Assembly (NCBI GenBank): GCA_001885315.1
Contig: MLPZ01000002.1
Span: forward strand, 139,365 to 173,645
DNA: 34,281 nt
DNA from: Treponema sp. CETP13
GTDB lineage: Bacteria > Spirochaetota > Spirochaetia > Treponematales > Treponemataceae
Direction: 5' to 3'
Part shown: piece by piece, positions 2,262 through 18,009 of the stretch
Layout of the letters: each line of letters begins with the position of its first letter
How positions within the stretch are numbered: the first letter of the stretch is position 1
Program-made: the position numbers and the translations under genes
The notes under the pieces: generated by a model
The model's database searches: none
What the model saw: the letters and a program-made list of their open reading frames with translations, nothing else
Told to the model about the DNA's origin: nothing

Positions 2262-3245
2262 GTGCTAAAAGTGATTTATGCTGGAAGCCCTGAAATTTCA
2301 GCGACTGTATTAAAATATTTAGCAAGTGTTTCGAGTATCGAAATTGTAGGAGTTCTTACAAATCCTCCTTCTGCAAAAGGTAGGCATAAAAAACTAACCC
2401 CTACTCCTACTGCTCAAATGGCTACTTCTCTTAATCTTACTGTTTTAGAGCCCGAATACTTACGAGCCTCAGCGAGAGAATTAATTAGTGCTTTAAATCC
2501 AGATATCTTAGTTTGTTTTTCGTATGGTAAAATATTTGGTCCAAAATTTATGGAACTTTTCCCTAAGGGTGGGATTAATTTACATCCTTCGTTGTTACCA
2601 AGGTGGAGAGGGTGTGCTCCTGTTGCTGCGGCTATTCTTGCGCAAGATACAGAGACTGGTATAAGCGTTCAGCGAGTTGCACAAGAAATGGATACGGGTG
2701 ATATTCTTTTACAGACGAGATTCCCTCTTTTAGGAACAGAAACAGCTGCTTCTTTGTTAGAAGACACAGCTCAAAAGGGTGGTCCAATGTTAGCCTCTGT
2801 TTTAGAACAAATAGAAGCCGGAACTGAGAAATCTTTTCGGCAAAGTTCAAGTGGTTCGACGTATAGTGAAATGTTAAAAAAAGAAGATGGGGCTATTGAT
2901 TGGAAAAAAAGTGCTTCTGAAATAAGTGCAAAGATTCGAGCCTTTAACCCATGGCCAGGAGCTTTTACGTGTATAAATGGTAAAATGTTGCGCATGCATT
3001 ATGCACAAGTCTTTAATGGTAATATATGCGAAGTGTGTGAAAATTTACTGCAAGATGCCACCCCTGGAACTGTTCTTTGTGCAAATAAAAAAAATGGAAT
3101 ACTTATTCAATGTGGACGAGGTATTCTTTCTGTGACATCATTGCAATGGCAGTCGAAGAAAGCTATGAGTTGGAAAGAATTTTTAAATGGTGCGCATAAT
3201 TTTGCTGGAAGCTGTTGTTGTGAAATCGAAAAGGATAAAAAATGA
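2262..3245 (+). CDS. fmt: Methionyl-tRNA formyltransferase
   Basis: Formylates initiator Met-tRNA using 10-formyl-tetrahydrofolate. The N-terminal domain carries the family block NLHPSLLPRWRG with the catalytic Asn and His, then 'EMDTGDIL' with the catalytic Asp region. The C-terminal domain begins near 'INPWPGA'-like FNPWPGAFT. Length 327 is normal. The start is GTG at 2262, chosen because AAAGGTG at 2249-2255 is a good ribosome site six bases upstream and the translation MLKVIYAGSPE matches the family N-terminus. The stop overlaps the next gene by four bases (ATGA), implying translational coupling. Confidence 0.96.
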   Translation: MLKVIYAGSPEISATVLKYLASVSSIEIVGVLTNPPSAKGRHKKLTPTPTAQMATSLNLTVLEPEYLRASARELISALNPDILVCFSYGKIFGPKFMELFPKGGINLHPSLLPRWRGCAPVAAAILAQDTETGISVQRVAQEMDTGDILLQTRFPLLGTETAASLLEDTAQKGGPMLASVLEQIEAGTEKSFRQSSSGSTYSEMLKKEDGAIDWKKSASEISAKIRAFNPWPGAFTCINGKMLRMHYAQVFNGNICEVCENLLQDATPGTVLCANKKNGILIQCGRGILSVTSLQWQSKKAMSWKEFLNGAHNFAGSCCCEIEKDKK

Positions 3246-4264
3246 ATCTTAGTCAATTTGGTGTAAATTTTGAAAAAATTAATGAGTCAATAAAAAACAA
3301 TTGGAAATTAATGCTTTCAACGGTTATTGTAATGCTTGTAGTGTTAGCAATAATTTGTTTTGCAACTTTTTTTATGGTTGTAAAAAGTCCAGAAAAAGTA
3401 ATGGTTCCCGATATTGTAGGAGAACCCCTTACTGATGCTTTGCAGGAGATGCAAGCAAAAGAGTTGTATCCTAAAATTACGTTGCGTTTTTCTGAATCTC
3501 CAGATACAAAGGGAGATGTGCTAGAACAAAATCCTATAGGCGGTGCAATTGTAAAAGCTGGCCGTCGCATAGAGTTAGTTGTCAGTAATGGAGCTGTCCT
3601 AGACCAAGTCGAAGATTATGTTGGTCAAAGTCTCGATGAAGTTCGAGCCCATATGCAAACGTTATTTGCATCGACTTCTCGTCCTATGATTTCATTGCCT
3701 GATGTTCCTGTGTATCAAGAGGATGAGGCCGAAGCTGGTATTATTCTCTCGCAAAATCCTCCTCCAGGAACAGATTTAGTTGAACCTATTACGCTAGATT
3801 TAATTGTTTCTTCGGGTCCAGGAAACAAAAAAGTTACTATACCGTATTTAGTTGGTATGACATTGGCTGATGTTCATGTAAGGATGTCACGCACAAAACT
3901 TATCTTTCAATTTACAGGGGAAATTCCAGATGAGGATACAACTCCAGGAAGTGTTATTTCACAAAAATGGCCAGAAGAAGGAGAATTAGAACTTCCTTTA
4001 TATTCAACTGTTTCTGTTGTGTTGGCTATTCCAGAAGAACCTGTTGATGATATGATTTACGGAATATATGAAGAGACGCTGCCTCCTTATCCTTATGCTC
4101 TTGACGTGTCATTAGATGCGACTACAGAAGATGGTGAAACGTATAATGTTGTTGAATTTAAACATCCTGGGGGTGAAATAACTATTCCATATTCTGTTAC
4201 AAGTGGAACAAAACTTGTCTTATCTGTTCTTGGAAAACAAGTATCTAAAAAAACGGTCGAATAA
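3242..4264 (+). CDS. PASTA-domain membrane protein without a kinase domain
   Basis: A cytoplasmic N-terminus (about 1-23) is followed by one membrane segment (about 24-47) and then a periplasmic part. Three PASTA repeats follow: about 55-118 (VPDIVGEPLTDAL ... LVVSNG), 120-193 (DYVGQSLDEV ... LIVSSG) and 197-265 (VTIPYLVGMTLADV ... VVLA). An unassigned tail of about 75 residues ends the protein. PASTA repeats usually bind peptidoglycan fragments in Ser/Thr kinases and penicillin-binding proteins; here there is no kinase or transpeptidase domain, so the protein may be a cell-wall sensor or scaffold. It overlaps fmt by ATGA and is followed by aroDE after three bases, so it is expressed with translation and shikimate genes. 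Confidence 0.88.
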   Translation: MNLSQFGVNFEKINESIKNNWKLMLSTVIVMLVVLAIICFATFFMVVKSPEKVMVPDIVGEPLTDALQEMQAKELYPKITLRFSESPDTKGDVLEQNPIGGAIVKAGRRIELVVSNGAVLDQVEDYVGQSLDEVRAHMQTLFASTSRPMISLPDVPVYQEDEAEAGIILSQNPPPGTDLVEPITLDLIVSSGPGNKKVTIPYLVGMTLADVHVRMSRTKLIFQFTGEIPDEDTTPGSVISQKWPEEGELELPLYSTVSVVLAIPEEPVDDMIYGIYEETLPPYPYALDVSLDATTEDGETYNVVEFKHPGGEITIPYSVTSGTKLVLSVLGKQVSKKTVE

Positions 4265-4267
4265 AAT

Positions 4268-5761
4268 ATGATACATCCTAAAGTTTGTTTATGTTTAACC
4301 TGTGAAACGATTGAAGAAGATTTAAAAATGATAGAAAAATACCGCAATTGGATTGATATGGTTGAGTTGCGTGTAGATTATCTTTCTCCTGATGAACGAT
4401 TGCATATAAGAAAATTTCCCTCTCTTGCCGGACTTCCTGCTATTCTTACAATTCGGCGACAAGTAGATGGTGGAAATTTTATAGAAGGGGAAGCAACACG
4501 GACTATCTTGTTTTCAAGAGCTCTCGCTTTTGCTTACCAAGATATAAGTAAAAATTTTGCTTATATAGATTTAGAGGAAGACTTTCATGTTCCGGGCTTA
4601 CAAGATGCTGCATTTGCATTTGGTACCCGTATTATTCGCAGTTATCACAATATGAAAGATCCTATTCAAGATATTGCAAAAAAAATGGATTCGATGAGAA
4701 CAACTGGGTATGAAATTCCTAAAATTGCGTGCATGCCACATTCTCTTAGAGATGTTACGTCTATGTTCGAACAATCTAAATTAATAGATTATGAACATAT
4801 TTTATTAGCAATGGGTCCTTTCGGTGTTCCGTCTCGTATTTTGGCACAAAGACTCGGTTCGTTCCTTTCATATTCTTCACCTTCAGAAACAAGGGGAAAT
4901 TTATGTGTGTTAAATCATCTTGATCCTAGGACTCTAGTTGAGACATATAATTTTCGATTAATTGATGACGATACAAAAATATTTGGTGTTACAGGATCCC
5001 CACTTATTGCAACTTCTAGTCCTCTCATTCATAACGCAGGGTATAGGGCTCATGGTATGAATGCTGTTTATATTCCTGTAAGGTCAGATACTCCCGAAGA
5101 AGCAATAGAATTTGCAAACCAGCTTAATATAAAAGGTTTGTCAGTAACTTTTCCTCATAAACAAGCAATTATTAAGGAATTAAAACAAATTTCTGAAAAA
5201 ACGGGCGCGATTGGAGCCTGTAATACTGTTGTGCGTCGCGAAGATGGTTGGTACGGATATAATACAGATTCTTACGGACTAAAAAAAGCTCTTATGGAGT
5301 TTACTGGCTTACAAAATTTTAAACACAAAAAAGTTGCTATCATTGGTGCGGGCGGGGCAGCTCGTGCAGCAGCAAATGTTGTAAAAGAACTTAATGGTAA
5401 ATGCTGCATATTTAATAGAACTGTTTCAAAAGCTCGATATATAGCAGAACTATACAGGTTTAAGTACGCAGCTCTTTCACCGGATTCAGTCGATATGTTA
5501 GATTTGTATTCTGATATAATTATTCAAACAACTTCAGTAGGGATGGTAAACACAGAAAAAAAACAGAATCTAATAGATCCAATTTTCTTTTACGATTTTA
5601 ATGGCCACGAATTTGTCTATGATATTGTGTATGAGCCTAAAAAAACACCCTTACTTCGAAGAGCAGAGGCTGCGGGATGCCATATTCAAAATGGATATTC
5701 AATGTTAAAAAATCAGGGTTATGAACAGTTCAGTTTATTTACAGGGGAAAGTTATGAGTAG
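4268..5761 (+). CDS. aroDE: Bifunctional 3-dehydroquinate dehydratase (type I) / shikimate 5-dehydrogenase
   Basis: A fusion of two consecutive shikimate-pathway enzymes. Residues about 1-220 are a type I dehydroquinate dehydratase: the general base His127 is in RSYHNMKD and the Schiff-base Lys152 in IPKIACMP. Residues about 240-497 are shikimate dehydrogenase: substrate-binding serines in GSPLIATSSPLIH (from 243), catalytic Lys298 in SVTFPHK and Asp334 in NTDSYG, the NADP loop GAGGAARA near 361, and the family end motif MLKNQGYEQFSLFTG. It would convert 3-dehydroquinate to shikimate through dehydroshikimate in one polypeptide. It starts three bases after the PASTA stop and overlaps rpiA by eight bases. 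Confidence 0.95.
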   Translation: MIHPKVCLCLTCETIEEDLKMIEKYRNWIDMVELRVDYLSPDERLHIRKFPSLAGLPAILTIRRQVDGGNFIEGEATRTILFSRALAFAYQDISKNFAYIDLEEDFHVPGLQDAAFAFGTRIIRSYHNMKDPIQDIAKKMDSMRTTGYEIPKIACMPHSLRDVTSMFEQSKLIDYEHILLAMGPFGVPSRILAQRLGSFLSYSSPSETRGNLCVLNHLDPRTLVETYNFRLIDDDTKIFGVTGSPLIATSSPLIHNAGYRAHGMNAVYIPVRSDTPEEAIEFANQLNIKGLSVTFPHKQAIIKELKQISEKTGAIGACNTVVRREDGWYGYNTDSYGLKKALMEFTGLQNFKHKKVAIIGAGGAARAAANVVKELNGKCCIFNRTVSKARYIAELYRFKYAALSPDSVDMLDLYSDIIIQTTSVGMVNTEKKQNLIDPIFFYDFNGHEFVYDIVYEPKKTPLLRRAEAAGCHIQNGYSMLKNQGYEQFSLFTGESYE

Positions 5762-6476
5762 TTTAACTCAAAAGGAACAAAAAAAACTTGTTGGAAAAGT
5801 TGCTATAGATACATTAATTGAGAAGAAACTTATTTTTTCAGGAATGAAAATAGGTTTAGGAACTGGTTCAACTGCTATGACAGCAGTTACTCGACTAGCT
5901 GAAAGAATCAGTGATGGTACTTTACGAGATATTAAGGCTGTATCGACTAGTTTTCAGACTGCTAATGCCTGTGAAGAATATGGAATCCCTGTATTTACGC
6001 TCAATTCAAAACTTATTAATGGAAAGTTAGATTTAGCAATAGATGGAGCTGATGAGATTTCTCCAGAAAAGCACCTTATTAAAGGTGGTGGGGCAGCACA
6101 TGTAAAGGAAAAAATAATAGAATACAGTTCTAATCAATTGGTTATTATTGCAGACGAGAGCAAACTTGTAGCAACTCTTGGTACAAAATTTGCGCTTCCT
6201 GTAGAAGTTATTGCAGATGCACGTGTTCCGGTAACGCAGGCACTCGAAAAACTTGGTGCAAAGTGTGTTTTACGAGAAGGCGTAAGAAAGTGTGGGCCTG
6301 TAATCACAGACAATGGTAATCAGATAATTGATTGTACATGGGAGCAGCCTGTAAACGCTGTAAAGTTAGAAGATAAAATTAATTCTATTACTGGTGTTGT
6401 TGAAAATGGTTTTTTTACAAAAAAAAATCCGATAGTCTTTATTGCAAATGCAGATGGCAGCGTTCAAGAATTATAA
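5754..6476 (+). CDS. rpiA: Ribose-5-phosphate isomerase A
   Basis: Interconverts ribose 5-phosphate and ribulose 5-phosphate in the pentose phosphate pathway. Motifs: phosphate loop GLGTGSTA, active-site DGADEI, and KGGGAAHVKEKI with the catalytic Glu and Lys, then ADESKLV. An ATG at 5721 is also in frame, but the ATG at 5754 is preferred: AGGGGAA lies five bases upstream and MSSLTQKEQ is the expected short N-terminus, giving 240 residues. It overlaps the last eight bases of aroDE and appears to be the last gene of the def operon; no clear terminator follows. Confidence 0.95.
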   Translation: MSSLTQKEQKKLVGKVAIDTLIEKKLIFSGMKIGLGTGSTAMTAVTRLAERISDGTLRDIKAVSTSFQTANACEEYGIPVFTLNSKLINGKLDLAIDGADEISPEKHLIKGGGAAHVKEKIIEYSSNQLVIIADESKLVATLGTKFALPVEVIADARVPVTQALEKLGAKCVLREGVRKCGPVITDNGNQIIDCTWEQPVNAVKLEDKINSITGVVENGFFTKKNPIVFIANADGSVQEL

Positions 6477-13825: not shown

Positions 13826-13877
13826 TTACCTAGTAATTAACAATGTATTTAAATTGTATTATGTAAGTTTCTTATTG

Positions 13878-13908
13878 ACTGGCTCATATTTTTGAGCCAG
13901 TTTTTTTT
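13878..13908 (+). terminator. Rho-independent terminator of the glgX-glgP operon
   Basis: A 9-bp stem ACTGGCTCA (13878-13886) pairs with 13893-13901 across a six-base loop and runs directly into eight T residues (13901-13908). It is relatively GC-rich for this genome and lies 50 bases after the glgP stop. Confidence 0.92.
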
Positions 13909-13985: not shown

Positions 13986-14015
13986 TTGACATTCGAAAAA
14001 TTAATACGATATACT
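13986..14015 (+). promoter_or_regulatory. Strong promoter of the amino-acid ABC transporter operon
   Basis: Consensus TTGACA (13986-13991), 18-base spacer, TATACT (14010-14015). The predicted start is near 14021-14022, where a 9-bp hairpin begins. Confidence 0.85.
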
Positions 14016-14041: not shown

Positions 14042-14055
14042 ATGGAGGTATATAA

Positions 14056-14829
14056 ATGAAAAAAGGTTTAACCGCTCTTGCGGTAGTATGTTTTATGGTA
14101 ACTTCTGTTTTTGCAGGTGGTGCAAAAGAAACAGTTGTAATTAATTCTGCAGCAGATTTAGATGGTTTAAAAATTGGTGTTGTCAGTGGATACACAGGAG
14201 AGGCTTGGTGCCAAGATAATTTACCTAATGCTAAACTCTCATCTTTTAAAACAGGAGTTGATGCTGCTCTTGATCTTAAAAACGGTGCAGTTGATGCAGT
14301 TGTTCTAGATGAACTTCCTGCACAAAAAATTGTTGATCAGAATAGCGATTTAACAATTGTTAAAGATAATTTTGCAACAGAGGAATATTCAATTGCTGTT
14401 GCAAAAGGCAATACAGAATTGCTTGATACTATAAATGCAACAATCAATGATATGAAATCTAATGGTGAGTATGAAGCCCTTGTAAATGCTTTTATGCCTG
14501 TCGATGGAAATATTGTTATTCCAGAAACAATACCAACTTCTGGTGAAGTATTAAAAATGGGAACGAATGCAGCTTTTGCTCCTTTTGAATATATTGAAGG
14601 TACTAAAAAAGTTGGATTTGACATTACAATGAGTGAAAATATTGCTCAAGATGCTGGAATGAAGCTCGAAGTTATAGATATGGCTTTTGATAGTCTTATT
14701 GGTGCATTGCAGGCAGGACAAATTGATTTTATTGCTGCAGGTATGAGTGTTACACCAGAGAGACAGAAAAATGTTGATTTTTCTCAACCATATTATTCAT
14801 CAAATCAAGTAATAATAGTTCGAAAATAA
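14056..14829 (+). CDS. Polar amino-acid ABC transporter substrate-binding protein, circularly permuted
   Basis: A secreted binding protein with a signal peptide (about 1-20, cleavage after VFA, no lipobox Cys). The SBP_bac_3 halves are in reversed order. Residues about 31-146 (AADLDGLKIGVVSGYTGE ... NGEYEALVNAF) match the usual C-terminal half. A linker of about 20 residues (147-165) follows, and then 166-257 (LKMGTNAAFAPFEY ... YYSSNQVIIVRK) matches the usual N-terminal half. Expected ligand residues are kept: Arg236 in TPERQ for the carboxylate, Asp85 in VVLDELPA for the amino group, and Thr47 in SGYTGE. The mature length (about 237) equals the normal family, so nothing is missing, only reordered. 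It has a strong promoter and ribosome site (GGAGGT, six bases from the ATG), then the permease 21 bases downstream. Confidence 0.92.
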   Translation: MKKGLTALAVVCFMVTSVFAGGAKETVVINSAADLDGLKIGVVSGYTGEAWCQDNLPNAKLSSFKTGVDAALDLKNGAVDAVVLDELPAQKIVDQNSDLTIVKDNFATEEYSIAVAKGNTELLDTINATINDMKSNGEYEALVNAFMPVDGNIVIPETIPTSGEVLKMGTNAAFAPFEYIEGTKKVGFDITMSENIAQDAGMKLEVIDMAFDSLIGALQAGQIDFIAAGMSVTPERQKNVDFSQPYYSSNQVIIVRK

Positions 14830-14850: not shown

Positions 14851-15519
14851 ATGTTCCAGTCATTTTACGATACCATGATTACAAATAGTCGTTGGATTTT
14901 AATTGTTCAAGGGCTTGGTATAACTATTGTAATTGCAATTTTTGCTATTATAATTGGTACGTTACTGGGGGGTGTGTTTGCCCTTATGAAAATTTCTCAA
15001 AATAAAATCTTTAGGGGATTAGCAGTTTTATATACAACTGTAATCCGCGGAATTCCAATGGCAACTCAATTAATGATTTTTTATTTTGTTGTATTTGCCC
15101 CACTCGGCATAAATCGTTTATTGGTTGCTATCATAGCTTATGGAATTAACTCTGGTGCCTATTGTACCGAGATATTCCGAGGAGGAATTCAAGGTGTCGA
15201 TTTTGGGCAAACAGAAGCGGGGAGATCTTTAGGTCTAAGTCGCTGGCAAACCATGAAGAAGATTGTACTTCCCCAAGCAGCAAAGGCGTCATTGCCTACG
15301 TATACAAGCGAATTTATTGCATTAATAAAAGAAACTTCTATAGCAAGTTTTATAGCCGTAACAGATTTGACTAAGGCTGGAGATAATATTAGAAACATCA
15401 CATATAATGCATGGATTCCACTTTTAACGTGTGCAGTTATATATTTAGCTCTCACTTTAGGATTGACAAAAATTTTCTCTATATTTGAAACAAGGATGGC
15501 ACGAAGTGATAGAAACTAA
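14851..15519 (+). CDS. Polar amino-acid ABC transporter permease
   Basis: A HisM/GlnP-type inner-membrane subunit of 222 residues with about five membrane helices. The ATPase-coupling EAA loop is clear: [19 protein letters not shown]. The pattern '[15 protein letters not shown]' is a family hallmark (usually RGTPLLVQ). GGGAG precedes the ATG. It sits between the permuted binding protein and the ATPase, forming a complete importer with a probable permease homodimer. Specificity (basic, polar or Gln-type) cannot be told from the sequence. Confidence 0.93.
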
Positions 15520-16228
15520 AAACCTTATAAAAAACTTTGGTGATGTTCAGGTTTTAAAGGGAGTAAATGAATCTATAGAAAAAGGCGAGAAAGTTGTTAT
15601 CATAGGGCCTTCTGGTTCTGGGAAAAGTACCTTTTTACGCTGTCTTAATCTTTTAGAAACACCTTCTGATGGACAAATATTTTTTGAAAAAGTCGATATT
15701 ACTGATTCAAAAAACGATATTGATGTTTTACGGCAAAAAATGGGGATGGTTTTTCAACATTTTAATCTTTTCCCTCATTTAACGGTATTAGAAAATATAA
15801 CTCTTGCTCCAATTACATTAAAAATTATGCCAAAAGCACAGGCAGATAAAAAAGGTATGGAGTTATTGGAACGAATTGGTCTTACGGATAAGGCAGATGT
15901 GTATCCATCAACATTATCTGGTGGTCAAAAACAACGAATTGCAATAGTTCGTGCACTTGCAATGAATCCAGATGTTATGCTTTTTGATGAACCTACTTCG
16001 GCACTTGATCCAGAAATGGTAGGGGAAGTTTTGCAAGTAATGAAAGAGCTTGCAAATGAAGGGATGACAATGGTTCTTGTTACTCATGAAATGGGTTTCG
16101 CGCGAGAAGTTGCTGACCGAGTATTATTTATGGATGATGGAATAATAGCAGAAAAAGGTACTCCGCAAGAATTGTTTGATAATCCCAAAAATCCCAGATT
16201 GCAACAGTTTTTAAAGAGTATACTGTGA
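15506..16228 (+). CDS. glnQ: Polar amino-acid ABC transporter ATP-binding protein (GlnQ/HisP type)
   Basis: The nucleotide-binding subunit of the importer. Walker [10 protein letters not shown]-loop [10 protein letters not shown], signature LSGGQKQR, Walker [14 protein letters not shown] and H-loop VTHEMGFA are all intact. I choose the GTG at 15506 rather than the in-frame TTG at 15485: it gives [12 protein letters not shown], 240 residues (the usual family length), with AAGGA nine bases upstream. The gene overlaps the permease end by 14 bases and its own stop overlaps the next gene (GTGA), so the four genes are translationally coupled. Confidence 0.92.
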
Positions 16229-17478
16229 GTAATGAAAGAAAAAGTCTGCAATTTACTATTTTACATGACAAACAAATAAAGAAATTTTCTGTATATGGAT
16301 TTTTAAAAGATTTAAAGTTTTTTGAACCATATCTACTTATATTTCTAATGAGTAATGACATTTCTTTACTTGAAATAGGTTTTTTATTTTCTATTCGTGA
16401 AGTTATTATTAATGTTTTTGAAGTTCCCTCCGGTCTAATCGCTGATTATTTTGGTCGAAAAAAAGAACTCTGTGCTTGCTTTGTATTTTATATCCTTTCT
16501 TTTATATTATTCTTTTTTAGTAAAAACTTTTTTATAGCTGCTATAGCAATGTCTTTTTTTGGAATGGGAGAAGCTCTTCGTTCTGGGACTCACAAAGCTA
16601 TGATTTTTACATATCTAGAAAAAATGAATTGGCAATCAGAAAAGTCTTTTGTTTATGGAAAGACTCGCTCTTCATCACTTATAGGGAGCGCATTAAGTTC
16701 TCTAATAGGTATTTTAATTATATTAAAAATTCCAAGTTCAAGTTATATTTTTCTTGCTTCTACAATTCCGTACATATTAGATTTTGTTCTCATTCTCTCC
16801 TATCCATCTTTTTTGGATGTAAAAATGGTTAAAGAGAATATACCTATAACACAAATGTTTGTTATTCTTGGTAAAAGCTTAAAAAAAAATAAAAACTTAC
16901 GACACATACTTGCCAATGAAGGATTATTTGAAGGGGTAATAAGCACTATCAAAGATTTAATACAACCATTATTACAAGTGATTATTATTGGTTCGGGTTT
17001 CTTACTGGTAGCAACTGTAAGTGCAGAAGATAATTTAAATATCATTTTAGGATTAGTGTATTGTGTTATAAATATTGTTTGTGCAACAGCTAGTCGAAAT
17101 GCTTATCGCTTAAAAAAATGGAATACTGGGATTTTTTGGATTAATGTATTTACAATTTTACTTGCAGTTTTTTTAGCTATATTTGGATTGCCTACACAAG
17201 GTGTTGTACTTACAATAGTTCTTTTCTTATTAATACGAATCATGCAAAATTTTCGAAAACCTCTGTATGTAGATCAATTGGATGAATATATGGAAAAAAG
17301 TGAGAGAGCTACAATGTTGAGTATTGCTTCTCAATTAAAATCCATAGTAGTAATTTTTCTAGCTCCAATAGTAGGATATATAGCAGATGATAAAGGAATA
17401 AGTATGGCAATGTTTTTTCTTGCAATATTGGTTCTTGTTCTTTTACCATTTACTCTTCTTTCTGAAAAAAATAAATAA
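16225..17478 (+). CDS. Major facilitator superfamily transporter
   Basis: 417 residues with about 12 hydrophobic segments. The MFS motif A between helices 2 and 3 reads [13 protein letters not shown], and a second loop '[13 protein letters not shown]' resembles motifs of drug and sugar-efflux MFS proteins. The start GTG at 16225 overlaps the glnQ stop by four bases. Substrate unknown. Its placement at the end of an amino-acid importer operon suggests exchange or efflux of a related compound, but this is only contextual. No terminator is visible after it; the next gene has its own promoter. Confidence 0.85.
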
Positions 17479-17583: not shown

Positions 17584-18009
17584 ATGAAAAAGATTAGTAT
17601 GTTACTAATTGCTTTGGCTTTGGTTTTGGGTTTTACTGCTTGTTCTGCAATGAAAGATGGTACTTATACTGCAAAAGCAGCTGATTTTGATGAACATGGT
17701 TATATGGAGCAGGTAACTGTTACTATTGATAGCGGAAAAATTACTGATGTAAGTATTGATGCTATGACCGCTGATGGTGAAAAAAAATCAGAGGCATCAA
17801 AAGAAGGAACTTACGATATGTCAATTGCTGGTGCACAATGGCCTTGGCACGAACAAGTTGAAAAATTAGAAGCTTATTTGGTTGCTAATCAAGGTTCTAA
17901 GATTGAATCATTTGAAGGTGGCAAGACAGATGCCATTTCTGGTTGTACAATAGCTGTACAAGAAGATATTGAACTTTTTAATGAAGCTGTTGCTCAGGCA
18001 TCAAAATAA
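17584..18009 (+). CDS. Lipoprotein with an FMN-binding-type domain
   Basis: A lipoprotein signal ends at Cys20 (GFTAC, a relaxed spirochaete-type lipobox). The mature part fits the FMN_bind family (PF04205): DGTYTAKAADFDEHG, VTVTIDSGKITDVSID and a C-terminal DAISGCTIAVQ. Families covalently flavinylated by ApbE usually have SGA(T/S)xT; here Ala/Ser is replaced by Cys and the last position is Ala, so covalent FMN attachment is uncertain. It would sit on the periplasmic face of a membrane. It is a single gene with its own promoter and a strong terminator, suggesting high expression. Confidence 0.85.
   Translation: MKKISMLLIALALVLGFTACSAMKDGTYTAKAADFDEHGYMEQVTVTIDSGKITDVSIDAMTADGEKKSEASKEGTYDMSIAGAQWPWHEQVEKLEAYLVANQGSKIESFEGGKTDAISGCTIAVQEDIELFNEAVAQASK

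Follow-up and report, generated by a model that had tools for sequence, protein, structure and literature searches.

Natural circular permutation is already known among the binding proteins of ABC importers. OpuAC of Bacillus subtilis (2B4L), a type II binding protein, is related to ProX and ModA by a natural circular permutation that was recognised from structures (PMC2395249). In Treponema pallidum, Tp0684 (TpMglB-2) is a permuted ABC-importer binding protein, found in treponemes and in gut Gram-positive bacteria, for which both ligand binding and conformational change have been measured, so that a permuted binding protein is capable of both (PMC4990184). A permutant has also been engineered. 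In the lysine sensor cpLAO-BP, one of the two crossovers between the lobes was removed and the old ends were linked; the permutant still binds, with a sensor affinity about 36-fold below the value of the native protein (PMC5087393).

The window analysed here, a stretch of 34,281 nucleotides from Treponema sp. CETP13 (contig MLPZ01000002.1), contains an uninterrupted ORF of 257 codons (14056–14829, + strand, as are all features given below). Profile and sequence searches identify its product as a permuted homologue of the SBP_bac_3 (PF00497) family. The window protein has two stretches that match PF00497 (126.6 bits, E 6.7e-37, curated cut-off 26.4). The best stretch aligns residues 166–257 with positions 1–92 of the 132-position profile, and a six-frame genome search aligned the N-terminal part with positions 97–130; residues 31–150 correspond to the end of the profile and residues 166–257 to its start. 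A phmmer search of the PDB also returned swapped pairs, with residues 165–257 matching AncQR residues 11–104 and residues 29–143 matching AncQR residues 109–227. When the window residues were rotated into the canonical order, the two stretches merged into a single PF00497 match covering profile positions 1–130, with a score of 137.5 instead of 126.6 bits. The original prediction, according to which the two halves of the protein are swapped relative to PF00497, is borne out: the HMM coordinates come out in reversed order, and a full-length match in normal order is obtained only after rotation. The window protein had no match to the OpuAC profile PF04069 at E 0.01. Pfam matches comprise PF00497 and its relatives, and the structural matches are of type II; no type I protein is among the matches listed, a listing that does not amount to a test for type I. 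Among the best 60 PDB chains, no single-domain chain is collinear with the permuted profile, the tandem 6H30 being the only collinear case.

The chain of the window protein would run from lobe 2 to the C-terminal part of lobe 1, then through a linker of about 18 residues to the N-terminal part of lobe 1. A putative N-terminal signal sequence (residues ~1–21, MKK...SVFAGG; 14056–14118), recognised from the sequence and its relatives, precedes lobe 2 (residues ~31–105; 14146–14370), the approximate limits of which were set by matches to AncQR and TmArgBP. Lobe 2 holds Thr47 and Asp85 and comes first in the window chain, but in the middle when the order is normal. The C-terminal part of lobe 1 (residues ~106–146; 14371–14493), placed by PF00497, phmmer and the predicted model, is the last segment of a normal chain. 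The linker between the former C- and N-termini (residues ~147–164, MPVDGNIVIPETIPTSGE and neighbours; 14494–14547) was delimited by alignment and by the model, in which it is flanked by a helix ending at residue 146 and a strand starting at residue 164. The N-terminal part of lobe 1 (residues ~165–257; 14548–14826), which holds Arg236, is the first segment of a normal chain according to PF00497, phmmer and structural alignment, and terminates at the hinge strand QVIIVRK. The new ends, predicted to fall at the hinge between the lobes, do lie at the first hinge. Thr47, Asp85 and Arg236, three ligand residues said to be kept, are present and, together with Glu86 and Ser243, form a set of ligand-site positions that does not vary among 114 permuted and 16 normal-order relatives from treponemes. 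A lipobox cysteine is absent from the window protein and from some close relatives and present in most relatives, which suggests that anchored and probably soluble versions coexist within one family.

A model of the window protein, built from an alignment of 38 permuted relatives, is confident (pLDDT 92.4, pTM 0.80). In comparisons with the PDB, in which the permuted model was aligned sequentially, residues 27–108 (lobe 2) superpose on TmArgBP residues 126–206 with an rmsd of 1.4, and residues 162–250 on TmArgBP domain 1, also with an rmsd of 1.4, i.e., with the halves in swapped order. The top full-length match of the permuted model is OpuAC (Z 11.7 over 203 residues). As a control, the model of a normal-order relative from the same operon type, although less confident (pLDDT 77), matches dozens of amino-acid-binding proteins with Z scores of 22–25 over ~220 residues (best Z 24.9 over 217). 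As modelled, the window protein is a circular permutant of a type II binding protein, with the same fold and rotated segments.

The binding-protein gene is followed by a permease gene (14851–15519), the product of which matches PF00528 and, above cut-off, the TIGR01726 HEQRo 3-TM domain, and by an ATPase gene (15509–16228) encoding a PF00005 protein that is GlnQ-like but falls under the NCBI GlnQ cut-off. These profile matches are those of an amino-acid ABC transporter of the polar-amino-acid-uptake type, and both genes are intact, as predicted. The strong promoter claimed for the operon fared less well. A promoter-like site (TTGACA-18-TATACT, 13986–14015) matches the consensus at 11 of 12 bases, but such sites are not in excess in the region (16, versus 22.4 in shuffled sequence), and the consensus match is weak evidence. 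A Shine-Dalgarno-like GGAGG (14044–14048) lies upstream of the start codon, and a terminator-like hairpin 3' of glgP (13877–13902) sets glgP apart from the transporter operon; both were recognised in the sequence. The ATPase gene overlaps at its end with an MFS transporter gene (16225–17478), which is followed by a gene for a small FMN_bind-domain protein (17584–18009). From family membership, we infer that the substrate is an amino acid.

Full-length relatives collinear with the window protein, i.e., with the same swapped order, were found in 125 of 274 genomes of the Treponema family; in one more genome, a contig end truncates the relative. They are 48–70% identical to the window protein and are mostly accompanied by permease and ATPase genes. 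Carriers include Treponema bryantii, T. socranskii, T. porcinum, T. lecithinolyticum and a MAG labelled T. brennaborense. No full-length permuted match was found in a sample of the other families of the same taxonomic order, while a sample of the phylum yielded three further genomes from two other families. In Clostridia, three relatives reach 60–63% identity, and the carriers include Anaerotruncus massiliensis and Merdimmobilis hominis. Full-length matches occur in ~30 of 345 Oscillospirales genomes and in 18–19 of 341 genomes of a Clostridia sample. Tandem multi-domain ORFs of 500–1200 residues may mimic a permuted match, and were excluded by HMM mapping at the Oscillospirales loci. The spread over Clostridia and treponemes implies horizontal transfer. 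In the binding-protein (SBP) tree, the window protein groups with the clostridial loci L137 and L208, which lie outside the treponemes in the permease tree; it is possible that the binding-protein gene alone was exchanged.

In 16 treponeme genomes (L041–L056), the binding protein has the normal order, D1-D2. These genes are 66–73% and 50–59% identical to the two halves of the window protein, and usually lie directly 5' of the same permease gene. At L043, homologues of glgP and glgX are found close by, as in the window. At L043, L044, L047–L049 and L053–L056, there is no ATPase gene within 3.5 kb 3' of the permease gene. No leftover D1 or D2 copies were seen beside the normal-order genes at L043 and L046. 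In the RpoB tree, the genomes carrying normal-order genes are scattered (at least four changes), and their union in a single clade is rejected (p 4e-8), a distribution which implies either that the operon moves horizontally between species or that some of the bins are mixed. The species tree is unfit as an arbiter of the direction of change, because this scatter means that the operon is not simply inherited vertically.

Other cuts occur in the same family, in Clostridia. In L258, L261, L264 and one L257 gene, the C-terminal part of lobe 1 is followed by the N-terminal part of lobe 1 and then by lobe 2, the cut being at the second hinge. In L255, L256, L257, L259, L260, L262, L263 and L265, the cut lies some residues past hinge 1, leaving the hinge helix at the C-terminus. 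L257 carries two neighbouring genes (3988–4854 and 4901–5770), the former cut at the second hinge and the latter just past the first, with one permease gene after them. L267 features two adjoining permuted binding-protein genes (2873–3775 and 3949–4797) of a distant subfamily cut at hinge 1. Joining L267 with the other hinge-1 permutants is rejected (p-AU 8e-7), so that this cut appears to have arisen separately in L267.

In-frame fusions of a permuted binding protein to a permease are found in Clostridia (L220, 1450–2979, and L225, 793–2382), and L234 (1489–3372) combines two permuted copies in tandem and a permease in one frame. In-frame tandems of the D1-D2-D1-D2-permease and D2-D1-D2-D1-permease types also occur in Clostridia. 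L226, L227 and L228 each have a long ORF encoding two nearly identical normal-order domains. Within a protein, each copy has the other as its nearest or near-nearest relative, which suggests a recent duplication or gene conversion. The order changes probably arose when a gene was duplicated in tandem and in frame and the outer parts were then lost. The original prediction had proposed this route, which is plausible since in-frame tandems exist in the same region of the tree; it is unproven, no direct intermediate of the window lineage having been found.

Trees were inferred with FastTree and, for smaller sets, with iqtree, and the groups tested were named post hoc from the trees. The normal-order treponeme genes are nested among permuted ones in the SBP, permease and ATPase trees, and the permease subclade containing genes of both orders has a support of 99.9/100. 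A subgroup of treponemes has most likely gone back to the normal order, with the first half of the former linker left as a tail at the C-terminus. All 16 normal-order proteins end in such a tail (for instance, SYMPVDGEVKILKAADLQ), which corresponds to the start of the permuted linker (AFMPVDGNIVIPETIPTSGEV in the window protein). The C-terminus of the L046 protein, YMPLEGEIRIPVIEGLE, is close to the linkers FMPLEGEITIPVIEAIGSDG (L092) and FMPVDGEIKIPAVKGLDVKE (L066), whereas other normal-order binding proteins stop just past the last helix. The shared tail could in principle be older than the permutation and have later turned into a linker. With all data, AU tests rejected a clade of the permuted treponeme genes without the normal ones (p-AU 0.015), as well as the same clade enlarged by L160, L208 and L137 (p 0.0225). 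In a wider set, a clade of the hinge-1 permutants (without L267) excluding the treponeme normal genes was also rejected (p 1e-7). It is unlikely that the order of the normal treponeme genes is the ancestral one, and that the permuted treponeme and clostridial genes go back to several forward permutations that occurred independently at the same hinge. Such a permutation did apparently occur at least one more time, in L267, and the SBP data alone place the normal genes loosely: their position just outside the permutants of treponemes, L160, L208 and L137 is not rejected (p 0.40), and the combined permease and ATPase data alone give p values of 0.06 to 0.13; neither of these data sets reaches 0.05 or decides for the reversal by itself. 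Yet within the focal clade, by parsimony, forward changes alone would cost 6 events as opposed to 1 reversal in the SBP tree, and 11 as opposed to 2 in the permease tree, and the linker-like tail sets the normal-order treponeme proteins apart. The best tree contains at least eight order changes, an inexact count given the weak deep branches and the post hoc groups. A return to the normal order in treponemes fits what we regard as a likely general picture, in which one family reorders repeatedly and in both directions, by several permutations at hinge 1, by others at hinge 2 or a few residues further along, and by the treponeme return with its linker tail, so that orthologues of opposite order would serve the same transporter.

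The window protein itself very probably functions as the substrate-binding protein of an ABC importer for polar amino acids, with a chain permuted at hinge 1; its transport function is inferred from its family and operon. It would adopt the usual Venus-flytrap fold, binding an amino acid between the lobes and passing it to the permease. The lobes would be joined by one covalent crossover rather than two, lobe 1 would form one uninterrupted stretch of sequence, and the end carrying the N-terminal anchor or signal would now be on lobe 2. A tandem repeat misjoined in a draft assembly might also yield swapped halves, and a decaying gene might be fused from two pieces; such an artefact of assembly or annotation can be virtually dismissed, since the same order recurs, with intact frames and invariant ligand residues, in the 125 independent genomes, isolates included, at the divergence given above. 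The number of genomes, the confident fold and the invariant ligand-site residues sustain the earlier argument that the protein is functional. Binding proteins can also act as ligands of chemoreceptors, and the permuted protein might fold and, having lost transport, serve as a partner of a sensor or chemoreceptor. This is improbable, as the permuted gene regularly has its own permease and ATPase genes downstream and as the clostridial proteins of L220 and L225 are fused to permeases.

To our knowledge, natural circular permutants are usually distant pairs known only from structures. The present family offers permuted and normal orthologues that are ~67% identical over one part and 54% over the other, and that have the same permease downstream. 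With such natural pairs, it becomes possible to test directly how chain order affects folding, hinge mechanics, ligand affinity and membrane anchoring. They also call for caution, as domain annotation and normal alignment conceal order changes of this kind. Our search of the open-access literature uncovered no description of a permuted PF00497 protein, of a family with several registers or of a case of reversal, and a recent preprint (CIRPIN) does not mention binding proteins. That the family is undescribed holds within that literature; it does not extend to natural permutation as such, which has been published for other binding proteins.

OpuAC resembles the window protein in being a natural type II permutant, and is the top full-length match of its model. 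It belongs, however, to the glycine-betaine family, the permuted partners share less than 24% identity, and the relevant section of the report describes neither an orthologous operon that holds genes of both orders nor a reversal (PMC2395249). Tp0684 is a type I (cluster B) glucose-binding protein of an unrelated family, in which the first three strands of the N-lobe have become C-terminal and a fourth crossover is present (PMC4990184). In the GlnPQ tandem SBD1-SBD2 (6H30), the D2-linker-D1 stretch is collinear with residues 29–253 of the window protein, but 6H30 is a complete tandem of normal domains, whereas the window protein is a single permuted domain. cpLAO-BP is a PF00497 relative permuted by design; the window family is a natural version of such an arrangement, and provides a natural counterpart for permuted sensor proteins made in the laboratory.
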